This document shows positions 18,185 to 64,000 of a DNA stretch of 64,000 nucleotides, in pieces (the first letter of the stretch is position 1; the number at the start of each line of letters is the position of its first letter). Under the pieces are notes generated by a model, which saw only the letters and a list, made by a program, of their open reading frames with translations, had not been told where the DNA came from and ran no database searches. Position numbers and translations under genes: made by a program. Source of the stretch: Candidatus Thorarchaeota archaeon (lineage in GTDB: Archaea > Asgardarchaeota > Thorarchaeia > Thorarchaeales > Thorarchaeaceae); NCBI GenBank assembly GCA_029855935.1, contig JAGSHN010000027.1, forward strand, positions 1-64,000, given 5' to 3'.

Positions 18185-18188
18185 CTCA

Positions 18189-28300: not shown

Positions 28301-28599
28301 GCCGCAACAACCTCTTCTCGTGGAAGACCAGTCTCCTCCGAGACCTTGTCAGCCATCTTGTCGATATTGTTCGGTGTGCCAAGGGACATCAGCTGGTCGG
28401 CCGCATCACCCACAATGTCCTTCACAGCAGACCCAATCACTTCGCTGTCGACGGTCACACCAATCTCGGCCATTGCGCGAGACAGAAACCCACCGACAGC
28501 GGTGGCGGCCACTGGACCGAGGGCCGCTCCCGCGAGCACGGAAGCCGCTGTGACGACCAGACCCTTGCCAGCTCTCTTCAATAGTTTCTTCAGTTCCAT
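25336..28599 (-). CDS. NLR-like NACHT/STAND NTPase with HEAT-like repeats
   Basis: A 1087-residue protein with three parts. Residues 1-50 are a Gly/Ala-rich hydrophobic helix region (AGAALGPVAATAVGGFLS), followed by helical and coiled-coil segments to about 200. Residues about 205-560 are a STAND-type NTPase with Walker A LGDAGLGKTW (about 244-253), Walker B YIFLDGLDEMD (309-319), the sensor segment SFILSCRT, and a following helical/winged-helix part. A Pro/Glu-rich linker spans about 575-660. From about 665 to the end there are roughly ten HEAT-like helical repeats with phrases such as VRRSATMAIG, VRAGGAIALG and RRAAAVALG, some close to proteasome/cyclosome repeats. The ATG at 28599 has GAGGT about 11 bases upstream. 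Effector-NACHT-repeat order is that of NLR immune proteins and bacterial NACHT defence proteins. The defence role is inference. It is monocistronic and divergent from the SatD operon. Confidence 0.9.
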   Translation of the reverse strand: MELKKLLKRAGKGLVVTAASVLAGAALGPVAATAVGGFLSRAMAEIGVTVDSEVIGSAVKDIVGDAADQLMSLGTPNNIDKMADKVSEETGLPREEVVAALQYSLREFQGTLTDIVTELRSNTALLQQVVSLATESGVKIDVLLLQSQETTQKLNEVLSRLSAMEHGLDIAYRKFLGRYSAVESLDINRLRVISRLQRQRTVGTSGLGVRYTPDLYVPRTDPEIVFMRFMGDAGISDRNIFLVLGDAGLGKTWFLARMSMRCVEMGSPTFFVPLGHGIKSLTSVFHVESLQALVDLIDPILNSANDHAYIFLDGLDEMDPSNIRYLLGALAACRSDYVSFILSCRTAVWASSKAIAYGAGDLRYYIYENSRATDAAKAVGVMTPVSVLMSEFTESELKAAMQRYGIPESVPFDLLPLLSKPYILRLSAEWYRKMGSLPSPSSPEFLDLFAGGPKYADSVFRRLGILTERDSLYATVEKLIEAQCEALPLFKLPIEAESSTFATLVSSGMLRIRIGKSGTEVSLSKEFTVPLVVLTLLRYEQDRPRLHNLLKRIPAFVPDKARVIQRLVEQLIEGRTQPVEPEPTPERQPGPDVVTTSGETGTTEHEEEKKPEYRPLEQRFGPVSTGQEEVVEDRESVAEPPTPIVSESDVSAPPVPLPLGMTLTPATETLATLMNDSELNVRRSATMAIGIASLALKESERTMLLEPLIDDPDVDVAISSAWALVCTACSIKDGEIRARIARLLLADDDWGVRRAGAALAVLNVIRDRKDVTDITSELLSSDDGQIRTGAIHGLAIGSSLYGDPNQLLRIARSHLSDDHDDVRAAAVLAGGIITPLLEDPSTETEHLIELGDRVFGRMRESYPIALGFVLSRGIESKLFGKIIELLSDSEPMFRASAALGVALASLNKPRPQRFMDYVRPLLEDSDPDVRFRAALSYGIISRGVPEPIKEVQSLTDSSDEMVRAGGAIALGILSTQYRDDTQCVSLLNEMTRASDREVRQAAVKGLGCAMSRGWSEEARVAKLEPFINSEDESLRRAAAVALGVSTRGLDIHYGLALGDVMWRGAPFSYDECILYAMSSSMLLRFGA

Positions 28600-45693: not shown

Positions 45694-48600
45694 TCAGTCG
45701 AGGTCAAGCCCAATACTGCGCAACAGTGCCTCAAGGTCGGCCTTTGAGAGTGTCTTTGCCTGTTCGAGTATGATCTCAATCTCATCGGGACCTATGCCCT
45801 TCTGCTCCAGTCTCCTGCGCAGTTCCTCAAGCTGCTCCGGATGCTCCGCCAGGGCCGGCTCACGGACCTCCTGTACCTTACCCTCGGCCTCGGCAATGGC
45901 CTCGGCTCGACGCTGCTCCTCCTGGGCGATGACCTCCCGGAGGAAGCCGACACGCTCGCTGGGCTTCATCCTCGCGAGGTCAGACCTGAAGGCCTCAATC
46001 TCCTCGTCACCAAGACCGGTCAGCTGAGCGAGGTACTCCAGTAGCTCCTCGACCTCTGGTACCACAGCCTTGATTGGATATCCATCAACATCCTCCGACT
46101 CCTTGGCGAGGTTGACAGGAGCCAGCTCTTCATTCGCCATCTCTAGTAGGACGTCCTGCCGCGACCTCACAGGTGGTGCCTTGGGCACCTTGCCGCGCTT
46201 CAGCGCGCCGAGCATTCTGTTGATGTAGCGGATCATCTTTGGCACGCTGAGAACCTTGACATAGAGTAGGAGCAGTAGCGCAAGGATGACCAGAGAGGAG
46301 CCACCGTAGACGGCCACGTTCTGAGCAAAGATCTGCGCCTCACTTGGGCTGGAGTAGATTGTGAATGCGACCTGCTGTGAGACGAAGTCGTCCTTTGAGA
46401 GAGTGACGACAAAGTAGAACGTGCCGGGGTCAGTCACCTGCACAATGAAGACGTACGTGCCGTTGCCAGTGTTGCGTGTGAAGTCGGGGTAGAAGGTGAG
46501 ATTTCCATCGCCACTAATGCCGACCTCATAGTCGGCGTCGTCAATGCCCACGTTGTGGTCGAGGTCCCAGTACTGGACCGTTATCTCAAGACTCGCTCCT
46601 GGGTAGGTCCGAATCTCCTGAGTGGACACGTAGTAGGTCGTCAGCACCTGACGTACCGTGATCTGCACGGTCTTCACCGGGATGAGATAGTAGGGCCCAG
46701 AGAACACAAGATCGACTCGGTAGGTGTCAATCGGCAGGTCTCCGCTCACTGAGAGGAGGTAGGAACCGTTCTCCATCTGGGTCAGAGGAGCAATACCGAT
46801 TCCCTGCCAGTGAGCCTCGGCCACAAGATCAGTGATGATCTCGTCTGTAAGGTCATTGCGCACCGTGAACGCCAGAGAGGCGGTCTCATTGATAGGCAGC
46901 GAGTACGCTCCGACGCCGAGTATAGTGGCCGGAGTCCTGAGCATCACAAGGTTTAGCTCGATTGTGCCAGTCGCATAGTTTGGCACAGTCATCGACACTG
47001 ATACGATGTAGGTACGTGGATTGGTCACATTGACGACCACTGTGATCAGGTACGTGCCATTGCCGAGGTCGGTCACAACAGCGGGGCCACCAGACCAGCT
47101 CGCCGTCACTGAGGCACCGACCACGGGCTGATCGTTGTGGACGTCCCAGTACAACGTCCTGAACTGCACGGTGTCGCCGTAGTAGCCGGACAGAGTCGGC
47201 GCAGTCGAGTTGAGTACCGTGGGGACCTCGAAGACGTTGAATGACACTGTGCGTCGTGCTGTGGCGTAGCCATCCCGGGCTGCAATGACCGACAGCTCAA
47301 GACTGCCAGTGCTGAGCCGACTGGTGTTCACGGTTGTCACATATGTGCCATCAGGCTGCTCGTGGAGCAGACCTGACAGACCGCCCACCACGTAGGTCAC
47401 GCTCGCGCCCGTGACTCGTGTGCCCACAAAGGTATCGTTGTATTCAACAACGAGCTGGACAATGTCACCATAGTATGAGTTGACGAGTATCGCGCCACCA
47501 TTCAGCGTGAGCGATGTCGGTGTAGGCAATACTATGATCGTCACAGGAGTGTCGAGGAAGTCGTAGTTTGGTGCCAGAGCATGTAGTGTCGCCTGATAGT
47601 CGCCAATGGCGAATCCTGTGGAGTTGATGTAGCCGACGTAGTACCCTGGCGTACCGTTCGCATACAGGTGCGCGACTTTGTCGCCCCACAGGAGCGTGAC
47701 ATTGGCATCCTCGATCGGTACATTCCGCGCTGTGGCATTCAGGTACACCCAGAACTCGTTGAGGCCCGACGGATAGACATCCACAACAGAGGACATCGCC
47801 ACTATCGATCCCGAAGCCTTTGTGACAACCAAGGTAAAGGTTGCAGAGCGGGGCTGATAGAACTGCTTGGACGCCACGACCACAGGCTCGTAAGTACCAT
47901 ACCTCTGAGTGGCGGTGTCTAGATGAAGGACGTAGGTGCCGTTGCCAAGGTCGACAAAGGGATAGACCGTACCGTTCCACTGCAGCTCCACCGTCATCTC
48001 TGGGACGGGCGTATTCGTCAACGCCTCGACGACATCGGCGCGAATATCAATGAACTCGCCCCACTCAGCATAGTATGTGGTCTTTGATAGAGTGAGATCG
48101 ACTGTCAGTGCTGCAGGCTGGATCATCACAGTCGCTGTTGCCTGGCGGTAGTCCGTCTTCGTCGCCCACACGGCAAAATAGTACTGCTGAGCCAGCAGAC
48201 CAGTCGTATTGATGGTCAGCTGATAGACGCCACCACCTATCTCCATAATCGTGACCGGAGTGCCATACAGTGACGTCCAGTTGGTCTCCACCGTGGCCCC
48301 AGTCACAACAGTGTCGTGGTCGGAGTCGTACAACGTGACATTGACCACATGTAGGGCTCCCACAGGTAGTGAGGCTGGCGATGGTGCCTCGGTGACCAGT
48401 GTAGTCTGGATGAGCCGGATCACTGCACGGATGTCATACGCCGAGCGCTCAGCATAGTATGGATAGCCCGGGCGACTCGCAGTGAGATTGAAGAAGATAG
48501 AGCCAGTACCGAGGAACTGCGAGGTGGGTATCTCAAGGAGGTAAGAACCGTCGCCGTTGTCGGTGATGTTGTAGATGCCCGGCGAGATATTGAGGAATGC

Positions 48601-51600
48601 GACCGACACGGACGCACCGCTTATGCCAGCTCCGGAGATGAAGTCTGTGTACTCGAACACGATGGATATGTTGTCGCCGTAGGGCGTGGTACCGACAAGC
48701 GGAAACAGTATCTGAGTGGGCCGCTCGGTCGTCGTGGCATAGGTCGTCGCGTTGCGTGCTGCATAGTACGGAGGCTGGCCTGTCTTGTCGATGGTCACAT
48801 AGATGGGAACATTCGATACAAGGTGAGTGGAGTTCAACAGGGTGGAGTTGAAGCTTATCGCGTACTCCGTGCCGAGAGAGGCAAGAGAGTAGTCACCAGA
48901 GCCTATCGGTGTCTGGGCTGGTCCAAAGGTCAGAGCAATGTTCGACTTGGTGATCGATATCGCCTGGCCCGTGAGGAAGTCACTGAACTTGAACTGGAAT
49001 GTCACATTCTCAAGGAACGGTGTGTTGCCCGGCGTCTGGGTGATCAGAATCTGCGTCGGGCGCTCGCCTACACGAATGTAGATCACCCTATGTGCTGGCG
49101 CGTAGAATGGCACGCCCGACCAGCTCAAAGACACATTCACCGGGAAGGCCCCGAGGGAGCCCAGAGACTCACTATCGACGAGAATCCTGAACTGTCCGTT
49201 GCCCAGTGGCACAACCCAGTAGTCAGTGCCCTCAACGAGCGGGCTGACGGATGAGTTTGAGCAGGACACCACCACAGTTGCTCCGTCGATGGGAGAGCCA
49301 TCATTGTCGTCTGTGTACGTGACCACGAAGGTCGCATTCTCAAGGTAGTACGTCAGATCGGGTATCTCATATGCAAGCTGGGTGGCCCGCTCTGAAACAG
49401 CGAACCCGAACACATCGCTGGCATCCGCCTCATAGTTCGAGCCAGTGTAGACAATGGTCGCATTGAGAGTGAAGACGCCATCCGATGGGAACCCTGTGGT
49501 GTTGAGAACGACCTCGTACTGCCCGTTCCCAAGATACGTCACCGTGTAGTAACCTGCCAATGAGGCGTTCAGCGTCAGTGTTCCCGTCATTCCACTGGAC
49601 GACCCAGAGATCAGGTCGGTGTAGGTGAAGACCACAGTCACGTTCATTCCCCACTGGCCCGGCTCGAAGGAACCGTGTGTCAGCTGAGTGTTGCGAAGCG
49701 TGACCCGCAGGGTGAACGACTGGTTTGCCAAGTCCCTGTAGTAAGGCTCACCGCTCCACCCGATGTTCAGGTGCAGCGTGAACGTGCCGACGCCTCCCAG
49801 AGACTGTGTGTCGATCAGCATCGTGAAGAACCGGCTGGAGTCATCGTAGGACAGTGAGTAGGAGACCCAGCCCTCCGCCAGAGAGATCGAGATGGCTGAG
49901 CTGTTGGCAATCCGCTCCGACGAGAGCGAGTCAACGTAGCTGAAATAGAAAGTGGCACTCTCACCAAAGGGCGCAGGCTCAATCGGCACGTAGTCCAGAT
50001 ACGTGAGCCGTTCAAGCACCACGAGGCTGACGGTCATGCTCCTGTTCTCATACAGGGGGGCCTGACCAGAGCGCCACGTGAAGTTCAGTCTAAACTCGAA
50101 TGTCCCAGTTATGAGGAATCTTGATGTGTTGAGCCTGAACTCGTACGTCCCGGGCGATCCACCGAGCTCTGATACGACGAAGTCGGCCTGCGTCACAGGG
50201 TGACCAGCAGTGATTGGTGTGATGTAGACGAACACGTCTCCTGTGGAGTTGGATATGCGGGTTGAGTTGACCTTGTCCCAGTAGACCACCGTGAACGTGA
50301 AGTTCTCAAGATAGTACTTTGCCGTGGGCGCCTGTTCCAAGTAGATGCTCGTGTCAGTACCGAGGATACGCACCGATGTATGGATTGTCCCGTTGTAGTA
50401 CGTCGGTACCGGGCCGGTCCACCGGACTTCGATGGTGATGTCTTTCCAGCCAATCGTTCCCCACTGGTCAGCAGAGAATGTGATGTTGTAGTGGCCTGTG
50501 CCCAGCGTCGAACTCGAGACGCTCCACGTGAGAGTGGCCGTCGGCGACGAAACGGTGATACGGACATACCCGGTGAGGTTGTCGATGCCCACGCCGAGAT
50601 CCAGATCGCGGTACTCCACGAGCACGATCACAGTGCCCGTGTATGGTGTCTGGTCCACAGGCTTGTCAAGCACAAAGAGTGTGTCGTGGCTTCTGATCTG
50701 CACCTCGACAATGAATGTGTGATTCTGATAGTTGGGTCGTGATACGTCGAACTGCACAGTGTAGAAGCCGCCCGGTGAATTGACCGGGTCGTCGTCCTCC
50801 GTGAACAGTGTTATCTCGTACTCACCGGGCGAGACCTCAATGACCGTGTAGTTCTTCTCGCCAGTGGTGTGGAAGCTGGTCCAGTTGCAGACAATCGAGT
50901 TGTTGGCGCCAGTCACCGGCACATTCGAGTCCGTGTCTGTCCACGTCAGACGGAACGAACGCGACTCGCCCACAGGTATTGAGAGCTGATTGGCCGTGTA
51001 GGAGATGGTATTGTAGATCTCGCGTACGTCAACGTACAGGATGAGGCTCTTTGCCACAACAAACGGTGCTGTGGCCTGTACGAGTATGGGGTATTCTCCT
51101 ATCGGGATGCCAGCCGTTGAGAGCGTCACATCATAGAGGCCACCACCGACCTCAGCCACTGTATACGAGGCAGTCCAGTTGCACGTGATGGTTGCACCTG
51201 TTATGCCTGTCCCGTTCACGTTGGTATAGTTGACTCTGAATGTCTGGTCAAGACCAACGGCATTTGAGATTCCAGGATAGTCAGGTGACTCTAGGGTGGC
51301 GTCATAGTAGACGTTGAAGATGATCTGGGCAGTGGAGACGTCATACGCAGTGCGCGACCACGATATGTCCATTGTGAACTGGCCCTTGCCGGGCACAGTG
51401 CTTGTGTCAATGACCTTCGTGTACTCACCGTTGCCGCTATCATCGAATGTACCTGACCCACCAGCCCACGTGTAGCTCATAGTCCCACCCGGGACCAGCA
51501 CGTTGCTGTCTGTGTCATTGACCTTCAGAATCACTAGGACGAGGTTCTCATAGGTGGTGTTGGTCACCCACGTGGACACCGCGTCCGAGAGATATGACAT

Positions 51601-53430
51601 CACAATATTCGAGGTATGTCTGACAGTAAACGGTCTCTTGAAGAAACCGACATTCTGAACAGAGCCGCTTGCCCCCTCGTCGGTGGCATAGGCCTGAACC
51701 ATCCAGTTGCCAGCCGGAGCTGTGGAGCCGTCCATGACAAATACCGAGGAGGTGGCATAGCCCAGAGCGTCCACTGTGGCGTTCTCGGTGTACCAAGTGC
51801 TGCCGTCGGGAGCGAATATCGTGATGTTGACAACCGAGTTTGTGTACTGTGAGCCAGCGTAGACCCGGACCTGGCTGGAGTTGCCCGCACGCAGCTCGAC
51901 AGTGCGCGACCACGTCGCGGTGTTCGGATCATACAACTTAAGGTCTGTGATCATATTGGGCGCAGTGCTCAGTATGCGCCAGTACCCGTACCGACCTGCC
52001 TCGGTCGTCACCTCGTATGCTGAGACGTTCAGGTACCCGTCACCGGGGTCGCCACCACTCCACCCACTGGTGAGATTCTGCGAACTCGTCAGAGGTCGAG
52101 ATACGTTGAACACGTCTCGCGTCGAGGGAATGGTCATATTGAAGAAGTACCTGTTGACGTAGCCCTCGGGGATGTCAGCGTAGAAGTAGTTGGCAAACTG
52201 CGCGTCGGTGCCATTCTGCACCGTAAACGTCTCACCGTAGGCCGTCGGCGAGATGTCGTAGACCGTCAGCGCGTTGTGCCTGCGGGCGAACATATTGATG
52301 TTGACGTCAAACTCCACGATGATGGGCCTGTTAGGTGTGGGATTGGTCGGTGTCGGCCACCACGAGAAGTTCATCGGAATGGGGTTGCCTGTCCACGGCA
52401 TCTGTGGGTCCTGAGTCAGAGAGCCGGTGCCAGTCGTGGTGCCATCGAGGACCGACTCTTCATTCATCTTCAGGTTTACATCTGACGGATTGGCGAGCGT
52501 CTTCACGTAAAGCTCGACATTGTCGAACTTGGCCCTTGGAGCGATGTCAGGATCGTACCCTACGTTCTGCTTGCTCCAGAGGCCCACCTCAATAGACACA
52601 GAGGGCAGGGAGAAGATGTCGCTGGGCACTGACACGAGGCCGGAATCAAACCATGTCTCCTCAGCCCCAATGTCATCGAAGACGAGCTGCCAGACCATAG
52701 AGCCCTCGACACGAGCGTACACTGCAAAGGAACCAGTCATTCCATAGTGGGTGTCATCCCGAGTGTCTGCCCAGTAGTCAAGCCGTAGACCCGCCCAGAC
52801 CACGGGGCCTCTGTCTACAGTCATTGTCTGTGTCGCGTAGGCATAGTCCCCAGCGTCATAACCGTACGGCGCGGACTGCGAGTTGCTGTTGATCTCGACA
52901 TCCACGCACGGTCCGCCACTGGCGTCGCCTGTGGAGTTGTATGACGCTGCAGGAGTGCTGGAGCCACCAGCACCAGTGGTAGCGTAGGTCCAGTCATTCT
53001 GGGTCGCAAAGTCCGGACTATGGACCCACGTCCTGTTCTCGGTGAGCTGAGTCACCTGCAGCTCCGCGTGGTACGCCTCCCAGTCCGGGCCCAGAGACAC
53101 GTTGACCGCAGAGCCGACCGTCGTGTTGTCGGTGTTGTAGCGCAGCGAGACCGCGTCTACAATGGTCGTGCTGTTGCCGTATTCGGCACCAACCCGCGGG
53201 GACGCTATGCCATTCCATTCCACCCAACCCTGGTCTGAGAGAACGAACCTGTGAAGCTCCTCGCCAGGTCCAACCTCGATAGTCTGTCCATTGCCAATGT
53301 CAACTACGCGGTTGGCCCCCTTCTGTCCGTCGGTGGCAGAGGACGGCATCTTGGCCATCTGACCGGCCGAGAGCACAGACACTGTCAGGAACACGAGCAA
53401 CAGGGCAAAGACCACTATCTTCCGCTTCAT
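45694..53430 (-). CDS. Giant Ig-repeat surface receptor B with conserved cytoplasmic tail
   Basis: A 2578-residue type I membrane protein. The ATG at 53430 has GGAG 8 bases upstream and starts a signal peptide (MKRKIVVFALLLVFLTVSVL); a GTG at 53439 in a GTGA overlap is the alternative. Residues about 30-330 form strand-rich, jelly-roll-like domains. About 600 onward holds 17 Ig-like domains of roughly 95-110 residues, each with a Y-x-D in the middle and a G-x-G-x-Y strand late. One membrane helix (SSLVILALLLLLYVKVL) follows, then a tail of about 187 residues. The tail has VPxxxRxIxxM, PVRxRxxxxxM, MKPSERVGFLREVI and IGPDEIEIILEQAK motifs shared with the upstream paralogue. Many N-x-S/T sites fit a glycosylated surface. 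Likely an adhesin or receptor; the ligand is unknown. Confidence 0.92.
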   Translation of the reverse strand: MKRKIVVFALLLVFLTVSVLSAGQMAKMPSSATDGQKGANRVVDIGNGQTIEVGPGEELHRFVLSDQGWVEWNGIASPRVGAEYGNSTTIVDAVSLRYNTDNTTVGSAVNVSLGPDWEAYHAELQVTQLTENRTWVHSPDFATQNDWTYATTGAGGSSTPAASYNSTGDASGGPCVDVEINSNSQSAPYGYDAGDYAYATQTMTVDRGPVVWAGLRLDYWADTRDDTHYGMTGSFAVYARVEGSMVWQLVFDDIGAEETWFDSGLVSVPSDIFSLPSVSIEVGLWSKQNVGYDPDIAPRAKFDNVELYVKTLANPSDVNLKMNEESVLDGTTTGTGSLTQDPQMPWTGNPIPMNFSWWPTPTNPTPNRPIIVEFDVNINMFARRHNALTVYDISPTAYGETFTVQNGTDAQFANYFYADIPEGYVNRYFFNMTIPSTRDVFNVSRPLTSSQNLTSGWSGGDPGDGYLNVSAYEVTTEAGRYGYWRILSTAPNMITDLKLYDPNTATWSRTVELRAGNSSQVRVYAGSQYTNSVVNITIFAPDGSTWYTENATVDALGYATSSVFVMDGSTAPAGNWMVQAYATDEGASGSVQNVGFFKRPFTVRHTSNIVMSYLSDAVSTWVTNTTYENLVLVILKVNDTDSNVLVPGGTMSYTWAGGSGTFDDSGNGEYTKVIDTSTVPGKGQFTMDISWSRTAYDVSTAQIIFNVYYDATLESPDYPGISNAVGLDQTFRVNYTNVNGTGITGATITCNWTASYTVAEVGGGLYDVTLSTAGIPIGEYPILVQATAPFVVAKSLILYVDVREIYNTISYTANQLSIPVGESRSFRLTWTDTDSNVPVTGANNSIVCNWTSFHTTGEKNYTVIEVSPGEYEITLFTEDDDPVNSPGGFYTVQFDVSRPNYQNHTFIVEVQIRSHDTLFVLDKPVDQTPYTGTVIVLVEYRDLDLGVGIDNLTGYVRITVSSPTATLTWSVSSSTLGTGHYNITFSADQWGTIGWKDITIEVRWTGPVPTYYNGTIHTSVRILGTDTSIYLEQAPTAKYYLENFTFTVVYWDKVNSTRISNSTGDVFVYITPITAGHPVTQADFVVSELGGSPGTYEFRLNTSRFLITGTFEFRLNFTWRSGQAPLYENRSMTVSLVVLERLTYLDYVPIEPAPFGESATFYFSYVDSLSSERIANSSAISISLAEGWVSYSLSYDDSSRFFTMLIDTQSLGGVGTFTLHLNIGWSGEPYYRDLANQSFTLRVTLRNTQLTHGSFEPGQWGMNVTVVFTYTDLISGSSSGMTGTLTLNASLAGYYTVTYLGNGQYEVVLNTTGFPSDGVFTLNATIVYTGSNYEADASDVFGFAVSERATQLAYEIPDLTYYLENATFVVTYTDDNDGSPIDGATVVVSCSNSSVSPLVEGTDYWVVPLGNGQFRILVDSESLGSLGAFPVNVSLSWSGVPFYAPAHRVIYIRVGERPTQILITQTPGNTPFLENVTFQFKFSDFLTGQAISITKSNIALTFGPAQTPIGSGDYSLASLGTEYAISFNSTLLNSTHLVSNVPIYVTIDKTGQPPYYAARNATTYATTTERPTQILFPLVGTTPYGDNISIVFEYTDFISGAGISGASVSVAFLNISPGIYNITDNGDGSYLLEIPTSQFLGTGSIFFNLTASRPGYPYYAERSAYDIRAVIRLIQTTLVTEAPSPASLPVGALHVVNVTLYDSDHDTVVTGATVETNWTSLYGTPVTIMEIGGGVYQLTINTTGLLAQQYYFAVWATKTDYRQATATVMIQPAALTVDLTLSKTTYYAEWGEFIDIRADVVEALTNTPVPEMTVELQWNGTVYPFVDLGNGTYVLHLDTATQRYGTYEPVVVASKQFYQPRSATFTLVVTKASGSIVAMSSVVDVYPSGLNEFWVYLNATARNVPIEDANVTLLWGDKVAHLYANGTPGYYVGYINSTGFAIGDYQATLHALAPNYDFLDTPVTIIVLPTPTSLTLNGGAILVNSYYGDIVQLVVEYNDTFVGTRVTGASVTYVVGGLSGLLHEQPDGTYVTTVNTSRLSTGSLELSVIAARDGYATARRTVSFNVFEVPTVLNSTAPTLSGYYGDTVQFRTLYWDVHNDQPVVGASVTASWSGGPAVVTDLGNGTYLITVVVNVTNPRTYIVSVSMTVPNYATGTIELNLVMLRTPATILGVGAYSLPINETASLAFTVRNDLTDEIITDLVAEAHWQGIGIAPLTQMENGSYLLSVSGDLPIDTYRVDLVFSGPYYLIPVKTVQITVRQVLTTYYVSTQEIRTYPGASLEITVQYWDLDHNVGIDDADYEVGISGDGNLTFYPDFTRNTGNGTYVFIVQVTDPGTFYFVVTLSKDDFVSQQVAFTIYSSPSEAQIFAQNVAVYGGSSLVILALLLLLYVKVLSVPKMIRYINRMLGALKRGKVPKAPPVRSRQDVLLEMANEELAPVNLAKESEDVDGYPIKAVVPEVEELLEYLAQLTGLGDEEIEAFRSDLARMKPSERVGFLREVIAQEEQRRAEAIAEAEGKVQEVREPALAEHPEQLEELRRRLEQKGIGPDEIEIILEQAKTLSKADLEALLRSIGLDLD

Positions 53431-53435
53431 CTCTC

Positions 53436-56400
53436 TCACTCCTCCTCACCCTTCAGCTGCCGCAGCAGCGCGTCTATCTCGGCCTTGGTCAGGGCCTTCG
53501 CCTGTTCCACAATCAGATCTACCTCATCAGGCTCGATACCGAGGCCGAGTAGCTCTTGTCGAAGCTGCTCCAGCTCCTCCTCTGTCAGCGCCCGTGCCGC
53601 CTCAGGTGGCGCCGCCTCCTCGACTTCGGGCGCGGCTGCGACCTCCTTGGCCCGTCTCGCCCGCTCCTGCCTTATGACCTCACGTAGGAACCCAGCACGC
53701 TCGCTGGGTCTCATCTGGTCGAGGTCTGCACGGAGTGTGTCGATGTCAGACTCCGTGAGGCCGACGAGCTCAGCGAGCTCTGCCAAGAGAGCCTCAACAT
53801 CCAAGGCGGACACATCAACCGTCGACGGGGCCACGTCCTCATCCGTCTTCGTTATGTTGACGGGCTCCACCGACTCGTTCATCATATCAAGAATCATTGT
53901 TCTACGGTCACGCACAGGGGCGGCGGTGGGTACACCACCCTTTCGGAGCACACTCTCCATGTGGCGAATCTTGCGCACGAGAGGCGGCACCGAGAGGACC
54001 TTGATATAGAGCGCCGCAAGACCACTCAGCACAAGAATTGCAGCAGCGAGATAGCCGAAGGACGTGAACAGGGCCTGACGCTCGGGCGTCATCACTGTAT
54101 ACACCACGGCCGTGTACTCCGCCGCCTCGTGATCGCTGACGGACAGACGGATGTGAATCTCGTACGTGTTGAGTCCCGGACCAACAAACCCAAAGACATA
54201 GGTCCCGTTGCCCAGGTCGCGATTGAGGTCGGACACCAGTTCAAGTGTCGTCCCCTCGGTGCTGTTGACGGCACCGGGCAGCGGCCTGTCGTGATCAAGG
54301 TCCCAGTATGTCACTGTCACAGTGAACTCCTCACCCTCGTAGAATGTCGATGGATGACTTGCGACCCGCAGCTCGGTGTGGATGAGCCTTATTGTCATAC
54401 TGCTCCTGATCTCAGCGACAGAGTAGTTACCACGGGTCATGGTGACACGGATGGCGTAAGGTGTAGACCGGACCTCCAACCTCTCAATCCCCGTCGCCTC
54501 AGGACCGAAGGCATAGGAGCCGTTGCCCATTGGGACGAGGCTCACTGCTCCAAACTCCCAGATTGCTGCAGCAGTGCAGTTGGTCACGGGCCGGTCATTG
54601 AGTGTGTCCCACAGGGTGAACACGACAGTGTAGTCATCTCCCACTGGGAAGTCCACAGTGGTCGTGCCACGAATCTCCGTGGGTATCGGTCGCACCACCA
54701 ACCTGACTGAGCTAAACGCCGACTCGTACCTGTCACGAGAGAAGGCGAGGAATATGTCGTAGGCAAGAGGACTTGCTGGTTGAATCGTGGAGTTGATTGT
54801 CAGGACGTAAGTGCCGTTGTGGAGATCCACAAGCTGACCTTGTGTCAGACCTATCTCATAGATGGCTGTGGCATTGGTCACTCCCACATCATTGTGAGTG
54901 TCCCAGAACAGTAGGCGGAACGTAGCATTCCTGCCGTAGTACACCTCTACCTGACCACTACCAAGGACATCAATTCTCGTGGGAATACGTAGTACAGTGA
55001 CCACAAGCTGTGTGGTCGCGGGGGTGTGAGCAGCCTTGCTGGCCGTCACAGTCACGACCCAGCCTCTGACATCCAGATTGGCAGTCGGCACAATAGCGGT
55101 GTAATACCCAGGTTGTGTGGCAGGCTGCATCTGGCCCTCAATGTCTGCGATACGGTAGGTCACGTTTGCCTCAGTCACTGGCACCCCGAGATCGGTGTTG
55201 TTATAGTACACCGTGAGGTTGAACGTATCGCCATAGGTGACCGACAGACTTGTGATGCCCTCAAAGGCCAATAGTTCAGTTGATGCCTCTCTCACCTCAA
55301 TCGAGATTGACGAGCTGGCACTACCGTAGTTCGTCGATGTGGCTTGGAACGTCAGCTGATAGCTCCCGACAGGGACATCCGGTACCGACAGCAGGCCCTC
55401 GTACCGAGCAGTAGTGACGTTCCACACCAAGTAGCCACTCCCGCCAGCCCAGCTGAAGGATATTGATCCGACTGGTATCGACGAACCGTTCGCCGCCACG
55501 GTGTAGTAGGCCAGCAGCTCAGTGGTCTGGCCAAGAGTCAGTGTTGACTGACCTATGGACACCACAAGTGAGGCGGGCACCTTCCCTATCCTGATGTCGA
55601 TGTCGACATCACGGGTCTCGTAGTTGGTGAGCTCCGAATGAAACGTGAGTCTGTAGTCTCCAGCCGAGTAGAGTTTGGTCCTGATTGTAACTTGGTAGAG
55701 ACCACCACCGACCTCCGTCAGCACGTAGATGTCGCCAACCATCTTCAGTGTGACGGAGGCACCAGTCACGGGACTGGCATCTCGGAGATCGGACAGCGTG
55801 ACATTGAAGGTCACGAGGTCGCCGTAGATGATGCTCACAGGCGAGAATGTCACGTCGAGGTCCACAGGTACTGGACTGAGGGCGAAGTCCGCCGTCACTG
55901 TCTTGTTGTAGTGGAGATGACGGGAGGCATTGACATGAAACTCGTAGACGCCAGCAGTGAGCCCAGATGTGTCTATTGTCAAGTGATAGATTCCGTTCCC
56001 CACCTCCGCTATCGAGGAGCTGGTGCCATAGAGCGAGGTCCAGTCAGTGACCACAGTGGCACTCTCGATTCCGAGACCTGTCAGTACGTTCGTGAAGTTT
56101 ACATTGAGAATGACTGTGTCGCCGGAATAGTAGGTCACACCAGCTGGGACCGTCACCTCAAGGCTCGTGGACACAGGGTTCACAATGACAGAGAAGAAGA
56201 CATTCGTCTTGTTCTGATAGAACGGCGAGCCGGTGGAGGTGATGTTGAAGACGAAGTGATATCGTCCTGTCGAGCCAAAGGTGCTGGTGTTGACTCTTAT
56301 CTCATAGATGCCGCCACCAAGGTCCAGCACCCAGCTCTGAATGGGAGTCACATTCAAGCATTTGACGGTCACGGTGGCACCCGGAATCCCAGCGCTGGTG

Positions 56401-59400
56401 TCGTAGTCCGCAAACTCGATCAGTGCAGTGGCGTTGTACATGATGTCTGCGGGCGGCGTGGAGACCACTGCAACTTGCGAGGGGCGTCCCGTGATGGTCG
56501 CCTCCGTGGTGGTTGTGGAATTAGAATAGTACGGTGCAGTGTCACCCCAGTAGAACTGAACCTCGATGGGGTGACCCTCGACTAGAACAGAGGTTAGTAT
56601 CGTGGAGTTCAAGGAGATACGGTATCCGGTAGCAGTTAGGCTGAGGGCGTAGTCACCTGCGGAGAGCGGTATGTGAGATGCACCGTGAAACAGCAACAAG
56701 ACATCCTTGCTGAGAGTGACAGACGAACCGTCCAGACCGTCCGTCGCAGCCACAACAAAGGTGACATTGTTGAGAAACGGCGTGTTGAGAGGCGACCTCA
56801 CCACAGACAGGTGGAGGGGACGTCTTGATACCTCGATGGCCACAGAGAGCGTTCTCTCGAGGTAGTAGGGCTGTCCGGTGTAGTTCGCCACTATGTCGAT
56901 TGTGTATGAGCCGAAATTCCCAAGGGCCTGTGTCGAGATTCTCACACGATATCGTCCAGAACCGAGATAGTCAACCCAGTAGTTCACGCCCAACTGGAGC
57001 CCCGTTGCTGCAGTCGTACAGGAGGCATAGATCGATGCGCCAGCGATGCCGACATTCGTTGTGTCATCGAAGTAGAAGACTGTGACGTTGGCCTGCGTGA
57101 GATACGGCGCGGGACCCGGCAGCTCGCTTGTGAGCTGAGTCCTGCGTTGGACCACTGTCAGATAGAATGAGTCTGTGGCGTTCTCACAGTAGCGCGTCCC
57201 ACCATAGGTGATGCTGACATTGATGAGGTAGGTTCCCAGCTGACCGAAGGCACTCGTATTGAGAACCAGCGTGTATGTACCGTCAGCATTGTCCTCGACC
57301 GAGTAGTAGTCTTTCAACCAGGAGTCAAGCGTGAGATTGCCACCGTTCATTCCCGCGGTTGAGTAGTCATCGAGATCCCTATAGGTGAACAGCAGGGTGA
57401 GATTCGCGGCAAACTGAACGGACGTGTAGCTACCGTGCACAAGCTCTGTGTGGCGGTATCTCACGGTTATCGGTACCTCTACAGAGGTCCGGTTTTGGTA
57501 GTAAGGTGTGCCGACCCAAGTTATGTTGATGTGGAACACGCGAGTCCCTGGTGCCCAGGACGAGGTGTCTATCTCCAGATAGAACTCACCTGTTGCGTCG
57601 CCGCCGTAGTATAGTGTGTACGTCACAGCCTCAACAATCTCGATGTGCAGGCTTGAGGAGTTGAGAATCGGAGCGCCAGTGAGCGAGTCACGATACGTGA
57701 GGGTGAGATTGACCAGCTCGTCGTACGGTGTCACGGGCAACGGCGTCCACTCAACGGTCGTCTGTCTCTGTGTGGCACGCACTGTGACAATCAGAGTCTT
57801 GTTCTCGTACAACGGTAGAGCGCCCTTTGTCCAGTTGAACCATACCTCAAGGTCGCAGGATATTGGCCCACTGAGGAAGGCCGAGTCGAACTCGAACCAG
57901 TACTCACCCGGTTGATTGTCGGGGTCGACCTCGTAGATCATCATCTTTGACTGATCAAGGGACTGGCCGGGTGTGAGCACGGTCACAGTGATATGGACAT
58001 TTCCTGCATACGAACCCGTCGAGTTGACGATGCCAGTCTGTGCGCCGACATCGTAATAGACCAGCGAGAAGGTGATGTTCTCATCATACGGCGTCATAAC
58101 AGGGTTCACACCGATGAAGAGCTCGGCCGGGGTGGCTGTCACGACCACGGCGACCTCATCAAGATAGAGCGTCTCGTTGGTGTACTTCTCAGTGGGTCCT
58201 GTCCAGTTGGCGTGGATTGTCACGTTCTTTCCGCCAATCGAGCCCCACGAGTCAGCAGGGATGAGGACCAAGTACTCTCCCGGTGCGGAACCGTTGGTGA
58301 CGGTGTACGGCAACGAGGGGATGTCCGCGACTGCATAGATATAGACATAGTAACCTGTGGCGGAGCCGTTCTCTATCCCAACCTCCGCATCGACATCCCA
58401 GTACATCACTCTGATCTCAATCGTCCCCGTGTAGGGTGTGGGTTCAACCGGATTGACAAGATACAGCGATGTCAGATGCGTCCTCAGTTCGAGTTCAATA
58501 TAGAATGTATGGTTCTGAACACCGCCCTGCTCCACATCCACCTGCACCGTGTACAACCCGAGCGTGTCAGTGTCGACAGAGTAGATTGAGATGTTGTACT
58601 CGCCAGGAGTGGACGTCTCGACGACGGTGTAATGACCGTGTGAGCCAGTCCAGTTCAGCGTGAAGGCGCTCTCTGCACCTGATATTGGGAGGTTGTGGTC
58701 GGTGTCCCGATACGTGACCGTAAATGATGCGACGTAGCCAACCGGTAGAGAGAGATGACTTGTTGAGGGGGACGCCGACGTGAACAGCTCTCGAACCTGA
58801 ACAGACAGCTCAATCGTTCTGCGCTCCACAAAGTCCTTTGACGCCGTTATCTGGACCACGTACGTCGCCAGTGGGGCGGTACTCGTGTCGAGCGACAGTG
58901 TGTAGTAGCCCGGATTCCCTGCCTGTGGAGTGACCGTGTAGGTGCCGAGTGTCCAATTGCAGGTTATCGTGGCCCCAGTGATGCCGTTACTCCTCTGATC
59001 CTCGTAGTACAATGTGAGGTCAGCCGAATATCCCTTTGGAACATCGATGCCCGGCGCGTCGGGTGAGAGCAAGTCACTCAAGTAGATCACATTGATAGTA
59101 AAGGTGGCCGAAACGGAATCGTAGTATCCCTTTGTCCATTGCAGGGCCACGTCGTATTGCCCATTGGATGCCAAGAGCGATGTGTTCAACGCAATGTTGT
59201 ACTCGCCAGTACCGAGGTCATTCATAGTACCCGACCCGGCCGCCCAGCTGTATGCCATCACACCCTCTGGGAGAAGTTCGCCGTTGTCCGAGTCGTTGAC
59301 TCGCACCTGGAGAAGAACGACATCGCCATAGGTCACGTTGACACTCCACGTCGTGCGACCCTCAACAGGATATGTCACAGACATGACGGTACCGTGCTGG

Positions 59401-62120
59401 ATGCTGAAGCCTCGCCTGAAGTACCCAACATTATGGATCTCTCCTGCGGACGCGCTGTCGTTGACGAAGGCCTGGACCTCCCACGGGCCAACTGAGGCGT
59501 TGTAGGCTCCCAGAGTCACGGTGTCCGTCACCGCATATCCGTTCGAGTCAACCGTTGCAACCATTGAAGTCCACGGATTTCCGAGCGGGTCGTATATCGT
59601 GAAGCCAACAATGTCGTTGGCGTAGGCTGGGGACAGCGTGGCTCTGAACCGTGTGACATCATTGGCACGAAACGTCCTGGTGCGCACCCACGCCGAACCG
59701 TCCCAGACCTCAAGGTCGCTTATCATATTCGGTGACCAGCCCTTCAGATACCAGAAGCCGTTCTGAGCGGTGGTGGTCACCTCGAAGGCTGACACATTCA
59801 GAAGCCCATCTCCCGGGTCTCCATAGCTCCATCCATACGTCAGGTTCGTGTATCTGTCAGTGGGCTGCCCCACGTGATCGATGTCACGGTTGAGCGGAAT
59901 TGACACGTTGAAGAAGAACTTGGGCTCATAACCACCGGGAACAGCTGCGTAGTGGTTTGTTTCCCAGCGGACCGCCGTAGCATTCTCGACGTAGTAGCTG
60001 TCACCCGATGCGAAGTTGGCTGTGTTGTAGACCGTATCGAGGCCATACCTGCGAGCATATGCCGTTACACTCGCATCCATTGTAACCCGAACCTCAAGAT
60101 TCGGGACCGGAGGCAGTGGGACCGGGGTCCACGTGAAGTTCGCATAGGCCTTACCCTTGGTCCACGGCGTCGGTGGACGATACGTGACAACGCCCTCGCC
60201 ATACACCGGGGTCGAGCCCTGCATCACGTTCTGAACAGGAACTCCGTCCATCGTCAGGTTGACCTGCTCTGGAGTGGCCTTGGCCTTGATGTACAGGACT
60301 ATGTTGTCGAACCGACCCTCGGGCAAGATATCATTATATCGATACCACTCCTTTTGTGTGACCCTCAGGCCTATCATCAGGGGAACGTTCGGCAGCGACA
60401 GGGATGTGTAGTCCACCGGCACCAAGCCCGTGGAGTACCACGTGTTATCATCAGCGATGTAGTCGAACTTGGAACTCCAGAGATAGGAGCCGCCGTAGTC
60501 GGGATCGCCGACAGAGACGAAGAGCTCGAAGAAGCCGGTCATATACGATCCCCATCCGCGGCAGTCAGCATAGTAATCGAGCATGAGGCCGGCCCACGTG
60601 ACCTCCCCACGATTGATTGTCAGATCCTGTCGGACGTACGCCTTCTCACCCGGGCTATACCAGAAGCCGTACAGGCCAGAGACCGGGTCGGAGTGATAGT
60701 ATCCTCCAATCTGAGCGATGATCGCCCCGTCTCCAGCGGCGTGTCCATTCGGGGACCAGGTGATAGACGTGCGAGATGTGCCATCGCGTTCGACTGTATA
60801 CACGTAGCCACTGGCGTTCACGGCAACTCCATAGATGAATCTGAACTGGGCGTTTCCTGTGCCATCGCCACCCCAACGTCCCGAGTACGAACCAGTCTGT
60901 GTAAAGTACTGCACACGGTCGTTGCCCATGTCAGCCACGTAGATGGTACCATCAGAGGCAACATCAACGTCAGCAGGATCTCGGAAGGACCCTGCCGATC
61001 CACTACCAGCGAAGCTTCCGCCCGAACCGACAAGGCTGAGGTAGGTCCCCTGATAATTGAACCTCTGAACCCTGTTGTATGTGCTGTCGACAACAATTAC
61101 CTCATCATTGTTTGGATTGACGCCAATTCCCGTTGGGGCGTTGAACTGACCAGTACCAGTCCCCTGAGAGCCCCAAGAGCCTACAAAGTTGTAGTTAGAG
61201 TCAAAGTACTGGACACGGTCATTGCCCATGTCCGTGACATAGATGTATCCGTTGACGCTACCTACCGCCACGTCAACCGGACCGTGGAATTGACCGTTGC
61301 CCGTACCGGGACTGCCAAATTCTGCAATGAAACTACCAGAGGAGTCGAAGACTTGGATTCTGTCGTTACCGTGGTCCACAACATACACGTGGCCCGAGGA
61401 GTCCACATCGATGCCGAGCGGTCTGTCGAACTGACCCTGACCTGTGCCGAATGATCCCCACTGTGTGACGAAGTTTCCTGAGGCATCAAAGACCTGAATG
61501 CGATGGTTGTCAGTGTCCGCGACGTACACATACCCAGAGGAGTTGATTGATATGCCCCACGGATTGAGGAACTGTGAGGAGGAGGATCCGCGGGATCCCC
61601 ACTGACCCTGATAGTTGCCCGTAGAGGTGAAGAACTGAACACGGCTGTTGCCCTGAAAGCCGCTCACTGTCCGGTTTGTCCGGAAGGTCCAGTCGTCCTC
61701 GTTGGCGAACCCGTAGTTGACCACCCAGCTCCTGTTCTCCGCTATGTTGCTCACTCTCGACGTGACCTGATACGACTCCCAACCAGAGCCCACGGGGACT
61801 GTCCGCACGGCTGTACTTCTCGCCTGCGTGCTCGGGTCGTAGACCATACCAATGTCCGAGAAGACATCTGTCCGATTACCGTACTCGGCCACGGACAGAG
61901 GGTCCCCTACGCCTGTCACCGAGGTGGGCGCCGTTGAGATCACGTATTTGTAGAGGACCTCATCAGGACCTACCTCCACATACTGACCATCTCCGACCTC
62001 GACCATTCTTGGTCCGGCAGAACTCTGCTGGCTGGCAGGCGGGAGGGGCATGCTTGTCAGGACCGACAACACAAGGGGCACGAATACCAGCACCAGGCTC
62101 AGGCTCCGAACTCTCTTCAT
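53436..62120 (-). CDS. Giant Ig-repeat surface receptor A with inserted NHL propeller
   Basis: A 2894-residue type I membrane protein, upstream paralogue of the gene at 45694-53430. The ATG at 62120 (MKRVRSLSLVLVFVPL, signal peptide) has CGGAGGT about 8 bases upstream. Order: N-terminal domain, a six-bladed NHL propeller (residues about 147-446, with repeats such as GIDVDSSGHVYVVDHGNDR), the rest of the jelly-roll domain, 17 Ig-like domains colinear with those of the paralogue, a membrane helix, and a cytoplasmic tail of about 185 residues. The tail has the motifs SVPPLVRKIRHM, PVRDRRTMILDMMNE, MRPSERAGFLREVI and IEPDEVDLIVEQAK. The propeller is absent from the paralogue and accounts for the length difference of about 316 residues. 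Probable adhesion or recognition protein; partners unknown. Confidence 0.92.
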   Translation of the reverse strand: MKRVRSLSLVLVFVPLVLSVLTSMPLPPASQQSSAGPRMVEVGDGQYVEVGPDEVLYKYVISTAPTSVTGVGDPLSVAEYGNRTDVFSDIGMVYDPSTQARSTAVRTVPVGSGWESYQVTSRVSNIAENRSWVVNYGFANEDDWTFRTNRTVSGFQGNSRVQFFTSTGNYQGQWGSRGSSSSQFLNPWGISINSSGYVYVADTDNHRIQVFDASGNFVTQWGSFGTGQGQFDRPLGIDVDSSGHVYVVDHGNDRIQVFDSSGSFIAEFGSPGTGNGQFHGPVDVAVGSVNGYIYVTDMGNDRVQYFDSNYNFVGSWGSQGTGTGQFNAPTGIGVNPNNDEVIVVDSTYNRVQRFNYQGTYLSLVGSGGSFAGSGSAGSFRDPADVDVASDGTIYVADMGNDRVQYFTQTGSYSGRWGGDGTGNAQFRFIYGVAVNASGYVYTVERDGTSRTSITWSPNGHAAGDGAIIAQIGGYYHSDPVSGLYGFWYSPGEKAYVRQDLTINRGEVTWAGLMLDYYADCRGWGSYMTGFFELFVSVGDPDYGGSYLWSSKFDYIADDNTWYSTGLVPVDYTSLSLPNVPLMIGLRVTQKEWYRYNDILPEGRFDNIVLYIKAKATPEQVNLTMDGVPVQNVMQGSTPVYGEGVVTYRPPTPWTKGKAYANFTWTPVPLPPVPNLEVRVTMDASVTAYARRYGLDTVYNTANFASGDSYYVENATAVRWETNHYAAVPGGYEPKFFFNVSIPLNRDIDHVGQPTDRYTNLTYGWSYGDPGDGLLNVSAFEVTTTAQNGFWYLKGWSPNMISDLEVWDGSAWVRTRTFRANDVTRFRATLSPAYANDIVGFTIYDPLGNPWTSMVATVDSNGYAVTDTVTLGAYNASVGPWEVQAFVNDSASAGEIHNVGYFRRGFSIQHGTVMSVTYPVEGRTTWSVNVTYGDVVLLQVRVNDSDNGELLPEGVMAYSWAAGSGTMNDLGTGEYNIALNTSLLASNGQYDVALQWTKGYYDSVSATFTINVIYLSDLLSPDAPGIDVPKGYSADLTLYYEDQRSNGITGATITCNWTLGTYTVTPQAGNPGYYTLSLDTSTAPLATYVVQITASKDFVERRTIELSVQVRELFTSASPSTSHLSLPVGYVASFTVTYRDTDHNLPISGAESAFTLNWTGSHGHYTVVETSTPGEYNISIYSVDTDTLGLYTVQVDVEQGGVQNHTFYIELELRTHLTSLYLVNPVEPTPYTGTIEIRVMYWDVDAEVGIENGSATGYYVYIYAVADIPSLPYTVTNGSAPGEYLVLIPADSWGSIGGKNVTIHANWTGPTEKYTNETLYLDEVAVVVTATPAELFIGVNPVMTPYDENITFSLVYYDVGAQTGIVNSTGSYAGNVHITVTVLTPGQSLDQSKMMIYEVDPDNQPGEYWFEFDSAFLSGPISCDLEVWFNWTKGALPLYENKTLIVTVRATQRQTTVEWTPLPVTPYDELVNLTLTYRDSLTGAPILNSSSLHIEIVEAVTYTLYYGGDATGEFYLEIDTSSWAPGTRVFHINITWVGTPYYQNRTSVEVPITVRYRHTELVHGSYTSVQFAANLTLLFTYRDLDDYSTAGMNGGNLTLDSWLKDYYSVEDNADGTYTLVLNTSAFGQLGTYLINVSITYGGTRYCENATDSFYLTVVQRRTQLTSELPGPAPYLTQANVTVFYFDDTTNVGIAGASIYASCTTAATGLQLGVNYWVDYLGSGRYRVRISTQALGNFGSYTIDIVANYTGQPYYLERTLSVAIEVSRRPLHLSVVRSPLNTPFLNNVTFVVAATDGLDGSSVTLSKDVLLLFHGASHIPLSAGDYALSLTATGYRISLNSTILTSVLVEGHPIEVQFYWGDTAPYYSNSTTTTEATITGRPSQVAVVSTPPADIMYNATALIEFADYDTSAGIPGATVTVKCLNVTPIQSWVLDLGGGIYEIRVNTSTFGSTGRYHFVFNITSTGSPFYQNKTNVFFSVIVNPVSTSLEVTVPAGVTYYSGDTVILNVNFTNVLTGLGIESATVVTDWTSLYGTSSSIAEVGNGIYHLTIDTSGLTAGVYEFHVNASRHLHYNKTVTADFALSPVPVDLDVTFSPVSIIYGDLVTFNVTLSDLRDASPVTGASVTLKMVGDIYVLTEVGGGLYQVTIRTKLYSAGDYRLTFHSELTNYETRDVDIDIRIGKVPASLVVSIGQSTLTLGQTTELLAYYTVAANGSSIPVGSISFSWAGGSGYLVWNVTTARYEGLLSVPDVPVGSYQLTFQATSTNYGSASSSISIEVREASTELLAFEGITSLSVTYGDTFNLTVYYNNTDLGVPVTEANVTYRIADIEGQMQPATQPGYYTAIVPTANLDVRGWVVTVTASKAAHTPATTQLVVTVLRIPTRIDVLGSGQVEVYYGRNATFRLLFWDTHNDVGVTNATAIYEIGLTQGQLVDLHNGTYVLTINSTIQPASPLAYDIFLAFSRDRYESAFSSVRLVVRPIPTEIRGTTTVDFPVGDDYTVVFTLWDTLNDRPVTNCTAAAIWEFGAVSLVPMGNGSYAFGPEATGIERLEVRSTPYAIRVTMTRGNYSVAEIRSSMTIRLIHTELRVASHPSTFYEGEEFTVTVTYWDLDHDRPLPGAVNSTEGTTLELVSDLNRDLGNGTYVFGFVGPGLNTYEIHIRLSVSDHEAAEYTAVVYTVMTPERQALFTSFGYLAAAILVLSGLAALYIKVLSVPPLVRKIRHMESVLRKGGVPTAAPVRDRRTMILDMMNESVEPVNITKTDEDVAPSTVDVSALDVEALLAELAELVGLTESDIDTLRADLDQMRPSERAGFLREVIRQERARRAKEVAAAPEVEEAAPPEAARALTEEELEQLRQELLGLGIEPDEVDLIVEQAKALTKAEIDALLRQLKGEEE

Positions 62121-62209
62121 CTGACAACCTCCGGGTCGCGCACGCTCGACCTTCGGTATGCCCACAAGGGGCCTCCGCGGTTAGACAATCTTCAACCCGC
62201 CAATCCGCC

Positions 62210-62578: not shown

Positions 62579-64000
62579 CTATGAGGATGGATGTCTACGT
62601 TTTCGCATCACAACAACCAAGACAGCAACGAGGGCAATCGTCCCGGCCGCAGCCGCCACTGGCAAGAGCGGCAGGGGTGAAGGACCCCCAGTTTCGGTGA
62701 CAGACAGGAGGGTCAGAGTGGTGCTGGCCGTGTTCAGGCCCCAGTCCTGAACGTATACGGCAAGAGTCACGAGGTGTGCGGTGGTCGGGACGGCAGGGAG
62801 CAGGCCCGTCCAGAGGGTACCATTGAACGAGAGATCAATCGTGGAGCCTGTCCCATCGATGTCAATCACTGCTTGCACACTGTAGACGCCTGAGAAGTCG
62901 TCATGGGTTGAAACATCAATCTCGGCGCCGTCGTAGAGGTTCGAGATGTTGACCACGATGTCCTCGATCACTGGCGGAGCGGTGTCCACTTTGGAGAAGT
63001 AGAGACGACGAATCCAATGCTTCGCCTTGAGCAACGTGCTGTAGGCGCCCTTCCAGTCCATCCGGTTGAGCTGGCCCAGCGCCTGCAACAGCAGTTCTTC
63101 CGCTCTGTCACGTGCAGTTGCTGTCTCTGGGCGCGGGTTATCACCGATACTGGCCACCTCCTCTGAGAGGTCGCTGGCCACACTCACGTACATCTGATCC
63201 GTGTAGGTGCCCTGTGCCCAGTTCTGCTCGAACGACGAGGTGCCGTTGTGAAATGAGTAATACCCCATCGGTCCATAGTAGAAGTCAGCCGCATAGTGGT
63301 GTACACTCCACGAGTGGCCGAAGCCAATCGCGTGCATGGTCTCGTGAAGCTGTATCGCCGAGACTCCCGCCTTGGGAGTCACGCCGTCAGGGAGATAGTA
63401 TCGCTCCCAAGACTTCCAGATCACAGTCTGACCACCCCCGCCAAGCCCGGTGAAAGTCCTGTTCCCATAGACCATTACCATCTTCTTCTTGATGAATACG
63501 ACCGAGAACACGTTGACATCATACAGCTCCGAGATGTAGTTGGGGCGCATGGTCTGATAGATTGCATTGAAGAGTCCCGCACCATCAACGTAGGTCGTAC
63601 CATCGTCAACCCAGGCGAATTGCCAGAAGAGATTCTTCCACGCGGGATAGTCGTCGATGTCAAGATATTCGACACTGACGTCCCAGTCGATGAACGGTAT
63701 CAGCTCATTCAGGTGAGCAAGCTGTAGGTCGGCACTGGTCACCCACTCGAGGCTCTCTACGCTCACGCCAGCGGCCACATCCATACAGAACACCAGGCAC
63801 TTGACCCGCCCAGATTCAGCATAGGAGGTTGGAATGTGCTGACCTGGAAAGAAGAGATAGGTGACTGGATCGTAGATGTATTCTTGGAGATACGAGTTGA
63901 GCACGATTCTATCGTCCTGCTGCGTCAGGTTGAGGGTCGAGACCAGCTCGTCCATATCATAGAAGGTGTACTGCGGATCGTCATCATATGGGGCCTCGCC
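62579..64000 (-). CDS. Membrane-anchored metzincin-type metalloprotease, N-terminus beyond window
   Basis: 473 residues are visible; the frame is open to the right edge, so the N-terminus and probable signal peptide are missing. The zinc-binding motif HETMHAIGFGH is a perfect HExxHxxGxxH of metzincins, and a methionine in YYGPMGYYSF 21 residues later is a good Met-turn candidate. After the protease domain comes a helical stretch, then one Ig-like domain (VIEDIVVNISNLYDGAEID onward; key residues IVVNI, DGAEI). A C-terminal membrane helix (LLPVAAAAGTIALVAVLVVV) and MRKRRHPSS follow. The catalytic part is therefore outside the cell. It lies upstream of the giant Ig-repeat operon on the same strand, separated by about 460 bases, and could process surface proteins (inference). 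Confidence 0.88.
   Translation of the reverse strand, partial: GEAPYDDDPQYTFYDMDELVSTLNLTQQDDRIVLNSYLQEYIYDPVTYLFFPGQHIPTSYAESGRVKCLVFCMDVAAGVSVESLEWVTSADLQLAHLNELIPFIDWDVSVEYLDIDDYPAWKNLFWQFAWVDDGTTYVDGAGLFNAIYQTMRPNYISELYDVNVFSVVFIKKKMVMVYGNRTFTGLGGGGQTVIWKSWERYYLPDGVTPKAGVSAIQLHETMHAIGFGHSWSVHHYAADFYYGPMGYYSFHNGTSSFEQNWAQGTYTDQMYVSVASDLSEEVASIGDNPRPETATARDRAEELLLQALGQLNRMDWKGAYSTLLKAKHWIRRLYFSKVDTAPPVIEDIVVNISNLYDGAEIDVSTHDDFSGVYSVQAVIDIDGTGSTIDLSFNGTLWTGLLPAVPTTAHLVTLAVYVQDWGLNTASTTLTLLSVTETGGPSPLPLLPVAAAAGTIALVAVLVVVMRKRRHPSS

Follow-up and report, generated by a model that had tools for sequence, protein, structure and literature searches.

Several described systems resemble the locus reported here. 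Integrins and cadherins share with it an adhesive-looking repeat ectodomain, one transmembrane helix and a conserved tail to which an intracellular adaptor would bind, and archaeal immunoglobulin (Ig)-repeat surface proteins and S-layer-like giants share an Ig-like repeat ectodomain and a C-terminal membrane anchor. On the cytoplasmic side, longin and roadblock proteins serve as platforms for small GTPases, with roadblock-type dimers able to bind a partner helix (PMC10933270); NPRL2 and NPRL3, each with a longin domain at the N terminus, act on RagA (PMC8534245), and "NPRL2-like longin domain" proteins are already among the listed Asgard eukaryotic signature proteins (PMC9834061). Here we describe two adjacent genes of a Candidatus Thorarchaeota archaeon, one of the relatives of eukaryotes (GenBank assembly GCA_029855935.1, contig JAGSHN010000027.1, positions 1 to 64,000; this whole stretch of 64,000 nucleotides is called the window) that encode giant surface proteins, A and B, with a conserved cytoplasmic tail.

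Compared with those of integrins and cadherins, the tails are longer, all-helical and modular, with no sequence or fold relation found, and the gene linked to the juxtamembrane segment is of the longin/GTPase type, not a talin or catenin. Common anchors of archaeal Ig-repeat and S-layer-like giants end in a few basic residues, as does P0003 of the window, whereas here a conserved tail of 185 to ~415 residues follows the membrane helix. In the Ragulator/LAMTOR platforms, which offer a further parallel, GTPases are brought to a membrane by roadblock/longin-fold proteins that are also able to bind a partner helix (PMC10933270); but LAMTOR1 is an extended lysosomal scaffold, and in the present case the anchor would be a transmembrane surface protein.

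A modular cytoplasmic tail on giant surface proteins

Protein B (2581 residues; 45694..53439, minus strand, as are all window features given below) comprises a signal peptide, a long Ig-like repeat array, one C-terminal transmembrane helix and the cytoplasmic tail; protein A (2909 residues; 53436..62165) has the same architecture plus an inserted NHL beta-propeller. Counted from LSVP, the tail measures 185 residues in B (46251-45697; 190 from the end of the membrane helix at 46266) and 186 in A (53996-53439). The two tails are 46% identical in one comparison (tblastn, E = 6.5e-33) and 49% in another (E = 1.1e-41), which bears out an earlier note, made from this DNA alone, that the two giants share a tail of about 185 residues; the sequence modules quoted there are all present in both, save that PDEI is PDEV in A.

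The membrane helix of B, a hydrophobic stretch of ~25 residues directly before the tail (46267..46341; 54012..54086 in A), is 35% conserved among orthologues. It is followed by a juxtamembrane segment (tail residues 1-51 of B, LYVKVLSVPKMIRYINRMLGALKRGKVP...R, 46114..46266, delimited by alignments, AlphaFold2 and counterparts in other Asgard families; 53859..54011 in A, from alignments) with the pattern Y.R..S.P..[IV]R, then an amphipathic helix and a [KR]G motif. Helical unit 1 (residues 66-120 of B, 45907..46071, with PSERVGFLREVI; 53652..53816 in A, with PSERAGFLREVI, from alignments) contains invariant S-E-R, G-F, E-V and Q-E residues among 46 aligned tails. A variable linker (45844..45906 in B), which has a mean pairwise identity of 26% and the lowest predicted local distance difference test (pLDDT) values, leads to helical unit 2, the C-module (GIGPDEIEIILEQAKTLSKADLEALLRSIG, 45706..45843 in B, profile match 6.5e-20; 53451..53588 in A, 1.4e-18).

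The AlphaFold2 model of the tail, calculated from the 46-tail alignment, has a pLDDT of 81 (~90 for the greater part of residues 1-60) and places helices at 10-23 and 36-51 in the juxtamembrane segment, at 70-83, 87-98 and 102-130 in unit 1 and, after a break at 131-135, at 143-155, 160-170 and 175-185. The helix closing unit 1 is long and charged, and what had been taken for a final helical hairpin is predicted as three helices instead. The predicted template modelling score (pTM) is low (0.35), so the placement of the modules relative to each other is not fixed by the model. Compared directly, unit 1 and the C-module agree only over a short alignment (37% over 20 columns); both, however, align to the terminal unit of other Asgard tails (unit 1 at 91% across 43 columns, the C-module at 86% across 39), and none of 40 heptad-preserving column shuffles matched either score. 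Because this intermediate links the two, the tail probably consists of a juxtamembrane segment and three-helix units of a single kind, strung in a chain.

Conservation follows the same boundaries. Among A/B orthologues, identity reaches 58-61% in the juxtamembrane part and unit 1 and 62-67% in the C-module, versus 26-29% in the linker, 35-42% in the transmembrane helix, 40-44% in the last quarter of the ectodomain and 52-57% in mid-ectodomain. The tail modules are better conserved than both the linker and the adjacent ectodomain, as befits one tail-domain family and the defined, conserved tail that had been proposed.

Nor is the tail confined to two genes: the source genome encodes a third giant with the same tail (contig C16), and a full-tail profile, searched in 228 genomes of the phylum, found the tail strongly in 43 of the 47 genomes that belong to the window's own family, usually in several copies, and none as strong elsewhere. 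The remaining Thorarchaeal genomes comprise G032, with a weak match only, and G005, G028 and G036, without a match and 52-88% complete. The first search round matched 111 open reading frames, yielding 89 distinct tails after a C-terminal transmembrane helix, in paralogues as well as orthologues, most of which were aligned; almost all of the 55 tail loci bearing organism names are Candidatus Thorarchaeota, the few others being named "archaeon" or "Lokiarchaeota". Groups A and B have one C-module and group C a longer variable linker and one C-module, while each of the five proteins of group D (L068, L076, L089, L095, L101) has four, so that tails of groups A, B and C contain two three-helix units and those of group D five; the giants of group C sit in a conserved gene setting of their own. 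These tails form a single, modular Thorarchaeal domain family carried by single-pass giant surface proteins.

With the whole tail, no entry of Pfam, NCBIfam, PDB sequences or PDB folds matched above noise, and Foldseek searches with the tail model returned generic three-helix bundles only (best E 1.4). Weak matches to DUF6074, RecX, Thf1 and MgtE were set aside as noise-level, and a search for the C-module among cytosolic proteins of this genome gave just two weak partial matches, one to a helicase-like ATPase and one to a membrane protein, that were judged to be chance. No earlier account of this tail, or of a receptor link, was found in the literature searched. Judged by its sequence, the tail is a defined, conserved cytoplasmic domain that is unnamed in all libraries searched; the earlier note had likewise known no family name for it. 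For kinship with the integrin and cadherin tails to which the note likened it, neither Pfam, NCBIfam, PDB sequences nor Foldseek gave a match.

The juxtamembrane segment and its linked genes

A profile of the first 125 tail residues, run against other Asgard families, matched proteins of many of them (E 1e-13 to 1e-2). Read one by one, the matches lie directly after the C-terminal transmembrane helix of large open reading frames, the same site as in Thorarchaeia, so that the search across Asgard archaea suggested earlier extends the juxtamembrane part well beyond the family that holds the whole tail. The common core of ~45 residues comprises an aromatic residue, basic residues, P..[IVL][RK] and an amphipathic helix; most members then have [KRSE]G, and an R follows later. 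The remainder of the tail differs, spanning 44 to 98 residues in the Loki-type (f2) proteins read ("Loki-type" being a provisional label, read from gene content) and up to 342 in family f9. Outside Thorarchaeia the whole Thorarchaeal tail was not found: the first 45-120 residues alone match, most fully in f9, whose counterpart of PSERxGFLREVI is P..DRVWFLEDL. The profile-profile value for the segment, 98.7%, is partly circular, the set having been gathered with the Thorarchaeal profile. The in-frame stops in some Loki-type matches arise where a match overruns the end of a short tail, and the genes are not taken to be broken.

Around the genes that carry this segment recurs a soluble protein of ~375 residues that starts with MP.G....W, here called the longin/winged-helix protein. 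Across 20 genomes its gene lies within 3 kb of 25 of 45 juxtamembrane genes, versus 0.5 expected, in 14 of the genomes. Some of these loci had served to find the gene; of six held-out genomes, which had not, five likewise carry it no more than 3 kb from a juxtamembrane gene. Each of 33 genomes selected because they carry the segment has the gene, and among 23 genomes without the segment a full-length copy occurs in only one and partial copies in two.

The AlphaFold2 model of the longin/winged-helix protein (pLDDT 81, pTM 0.72) begins with strands and helices in the order of a longin domain and continues with two winged-helix units. Its best Foldseek matches in the PDB are chains of KICSTOR-GATOR1 and SEA complexes (E = 4.5e-4 to 9o5d_D), whose sizes fit NPRL2/NPRL3 and which are therefore candidate NPRL2/NPRL3 chains; a Lokiarchaeal longin domain comes at rank 21. 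The likeness to NPRL2/NPRL3 of GATOR1 is thus one of the linked protein and not of the tail: it lies in the N-terminal longin order, the winged-helix units that follow and the GATOR1-containing best matches, whereas the protein differs in having no detectable sequence match and in being encoded by a gene linked to surface proteins. For such a linkage of NPRL2-like longin genes to surface-protein genes, no earlier description was found.

A GTPase gene joins the pair at several loci. The source genome encodes, on contig C19, a fourth giant (2354 residues) with a divergent juxtamembrane segment (E 1.8e-5), located between a longin/winged-helix gene and a gene for an Arf-family GTPase with an N-terminal extension, and the same order recurs in three other genomes (G015, G010 and G014). 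In G013, a giant with no detected segment separates the longin/winged-helix and GTPase genes, and a second, juxtamembrane giant lies across the longin gene; in G024 the longin/winged-helix and GTPase genes adjoin, and in G002 and G012 the longin/winged-helix gene adjoins a giant with no GTPase seen there. In family f12 (L259), GTPase, longin/winged-helix gene and juxtamembrane giant are neighbours. As one structural study points out, GTPase genes of MK-D1 do not generally share operons with their presumed regulators (PMC10933270).

Two further features of these loci were observed. On C19 (L228, 13016-16383), the Arf-like GTPase gene after the fourth giant is followed on the same strand by genes for three small or coiled-coil proteins (187, 123 and 476 residues), which may make this a larger signalling operon. 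At Loki-type loci (L234, 1307-3307; L235, L238, L239, L245, L260, L261 and L262), a protein of ~640-670 residues with a TrmB-type winged helix and a coiled coil is encoded directly after the longin/winged-helix gene.

Genes A and B in the window

The stop of A overlaps the start of B, and their ectodomains are 34% identical in an alignment that runs end to end; since the likeness embraces the ectodomains and not the tails alone, A and B are tandem duplicates. The NHL beta-propeller of A (residues 199-430, 60876..61571; Pfam NHL, 1.4e-26) is absent from B and from some A orthologues, and Pfam recognized no named domain above cut-off in B. Both genes have orthologues across Thorarchaea in a kept order, consisting of a metzincin-like gene, A, B and then convergent tRNA synthetase, LPG synthase, PHP and UbiA genes. 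The metzincin-like gene upstream of A (62579..64000, running past the window edge to ~64757 of the contig) encodes a membrane-anchored metalloprotease, 725 residues long in L230 (4583-6757), with the zinc signature HETMHAIGFGH, kept in seven of seven loci that reach the gene, and a Met-turn-like PMGYY; it is a possible sheddase for the giants.

Other genes of the window include a giant with FG-GAP/PQQ-type beta-propeller repeats (10244-18439) that, in contrast to A and B, ends in a short basic tail only (RRRRRRTTGK), and another with bacterial TSP3 repeats and a Lys/Ser/Thr-rich tail (18189-24851). A Ras-family GTPase gene is cut by the window edge (1-519), and 25336-28599 encodes a 1087-residue protein with HEAT repeats and a weak STAND-NTPase match.

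A proposed receptor tail and other possible roles

The reading that we favor, with slightly less than even confidence, is that the tail belongs to a receptor and docks, through its juxtamembrane segment, a regulator of GTPases of the longin type, its further helical units recruiting more partners. The segment would dock the cytosolic longin/winged-helix protein, NPRL2/3-like in fold, which would regulate an Arf/Rag-like GTPase; the state of the ectodomain would thus be reported to the inner membrane face, or the regulator would be anchored there, and in Thorarchaeia the additional helical units would recruit additional or reinforcing partners. Binding, control of the GTPase and direction of signaling are all inferred. 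That A and B would use the same class of partner we infer from their shared juxtamembrane segment alone, their own loci being without a longin gene. Among the intracellular partners that the earlier note had envisaged, a GTPase-type option is backed by the gene linkage of the segment as it occurs in further Asgard proteins and the C19 giant, and no evidence was found for the cytoskeletal and ESCRT options.

Several observations weigh against such a docking role. No longin/winged-helix gene lies beside the A, B, C or D giants, whose neighbors are conserved housekeeping-type genes; the longin/winged-helix family has paralogues elsewhere, with 19 of 69 counted genes adjoining juxtamembrane genes, and the related genomes in the linkage counts are not independent. 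The Foldseek similarity lies mostly in the longin domain (template modelling score 0.25 by query length), and a sequence search with the protein finds no NPRL2. Outside Thorarchaeia the juxtamembrane similarity is short (~45 residues) and was gathered with a Thorarchaeal profile, and basic residues are expected after a transmembrane helix anyway.

This last point, together with the part of the linkage that comes from closely related genomes, would suit a segment that is only a charge-biased stop-transfer or membrane-insertion signal, the linkage reflecting ancestral gene order. We regard this as improbable, considering the position-specific conservation of P, R, G and the later R, the absence of the segment from all listed f17 and f18 genomes at E<=0.01, and a linkage that recurs in several distant families with differing gene orders. 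Binding of the tails to each other, which would join A, B and their paralogues into hetero- or homo-oligomers and make the conserved helices a surface for assembly and not an adaptor site, is unlikely but deserves more weight: A and B are neighbors with overlapping ends, kept together in Thorarchaea with both tails conserved, and a long charged helix ends unit 1. Self-assembly would nevertheless leave the linkage to a cytosolic longin gene unexplained, and the segment also occurs in single genes without a tandem tailed partner.

A cytoskeletal anchor as in integrins and cadherins, tying the giants to actin or other filaments via a partner encoded elsewhere, would fit a long helical tail on very long ectodomains as well as the actin filaments and abundant surface proteins of a cultured Asgard archaeon (PMC9834061). 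This role is quite unlikely, as no cytoskeletal gene lies near the tailed genes inspected and searches of PDB sequences and PDB folds matched the tail to no known cytoskeletal binding module. We give very little credence to three-helix units that bind ubiquitin or ESCRT components and thereby govern turnover of the giants: the units are three short helices, repeated in one group, and Asgard archaea are generally known to have ubiquitin and ESCRT genes, yet neither tail nor C-module matched a UBA, CUE or ESCRT-related entry in Pfam, PDB sequences or PDB folds.

A broader form of the docking proposal is more doubtful than the proposal itself. It would make the giants part of an Asgard transmembrane route, in which Ig-repeat proteins dock NPRL2/3-like longin proteins via a common segment and control Arf/Rag-like GTPases; this route would be a receptor-coupled forerunner of eukaryotic longin/GTPase systems, elaborated in Thorarchaeia by tandem helical units.

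Small GTPases of eukaryote-like type, and likewise longin and roadblock proteins, abound in Asgard genomes. With the tail described here, a set of very large surface proteins gains a defined domain, and surface structures of this sort have been seen as densities in tomograms of a cultured Asgard archaeon (PMC9834061). In the conserved linkage of a surface receptor, a longin-type regulator and a GTPase, the small GTPases of these archaea would have a concrete and testable upstream input.
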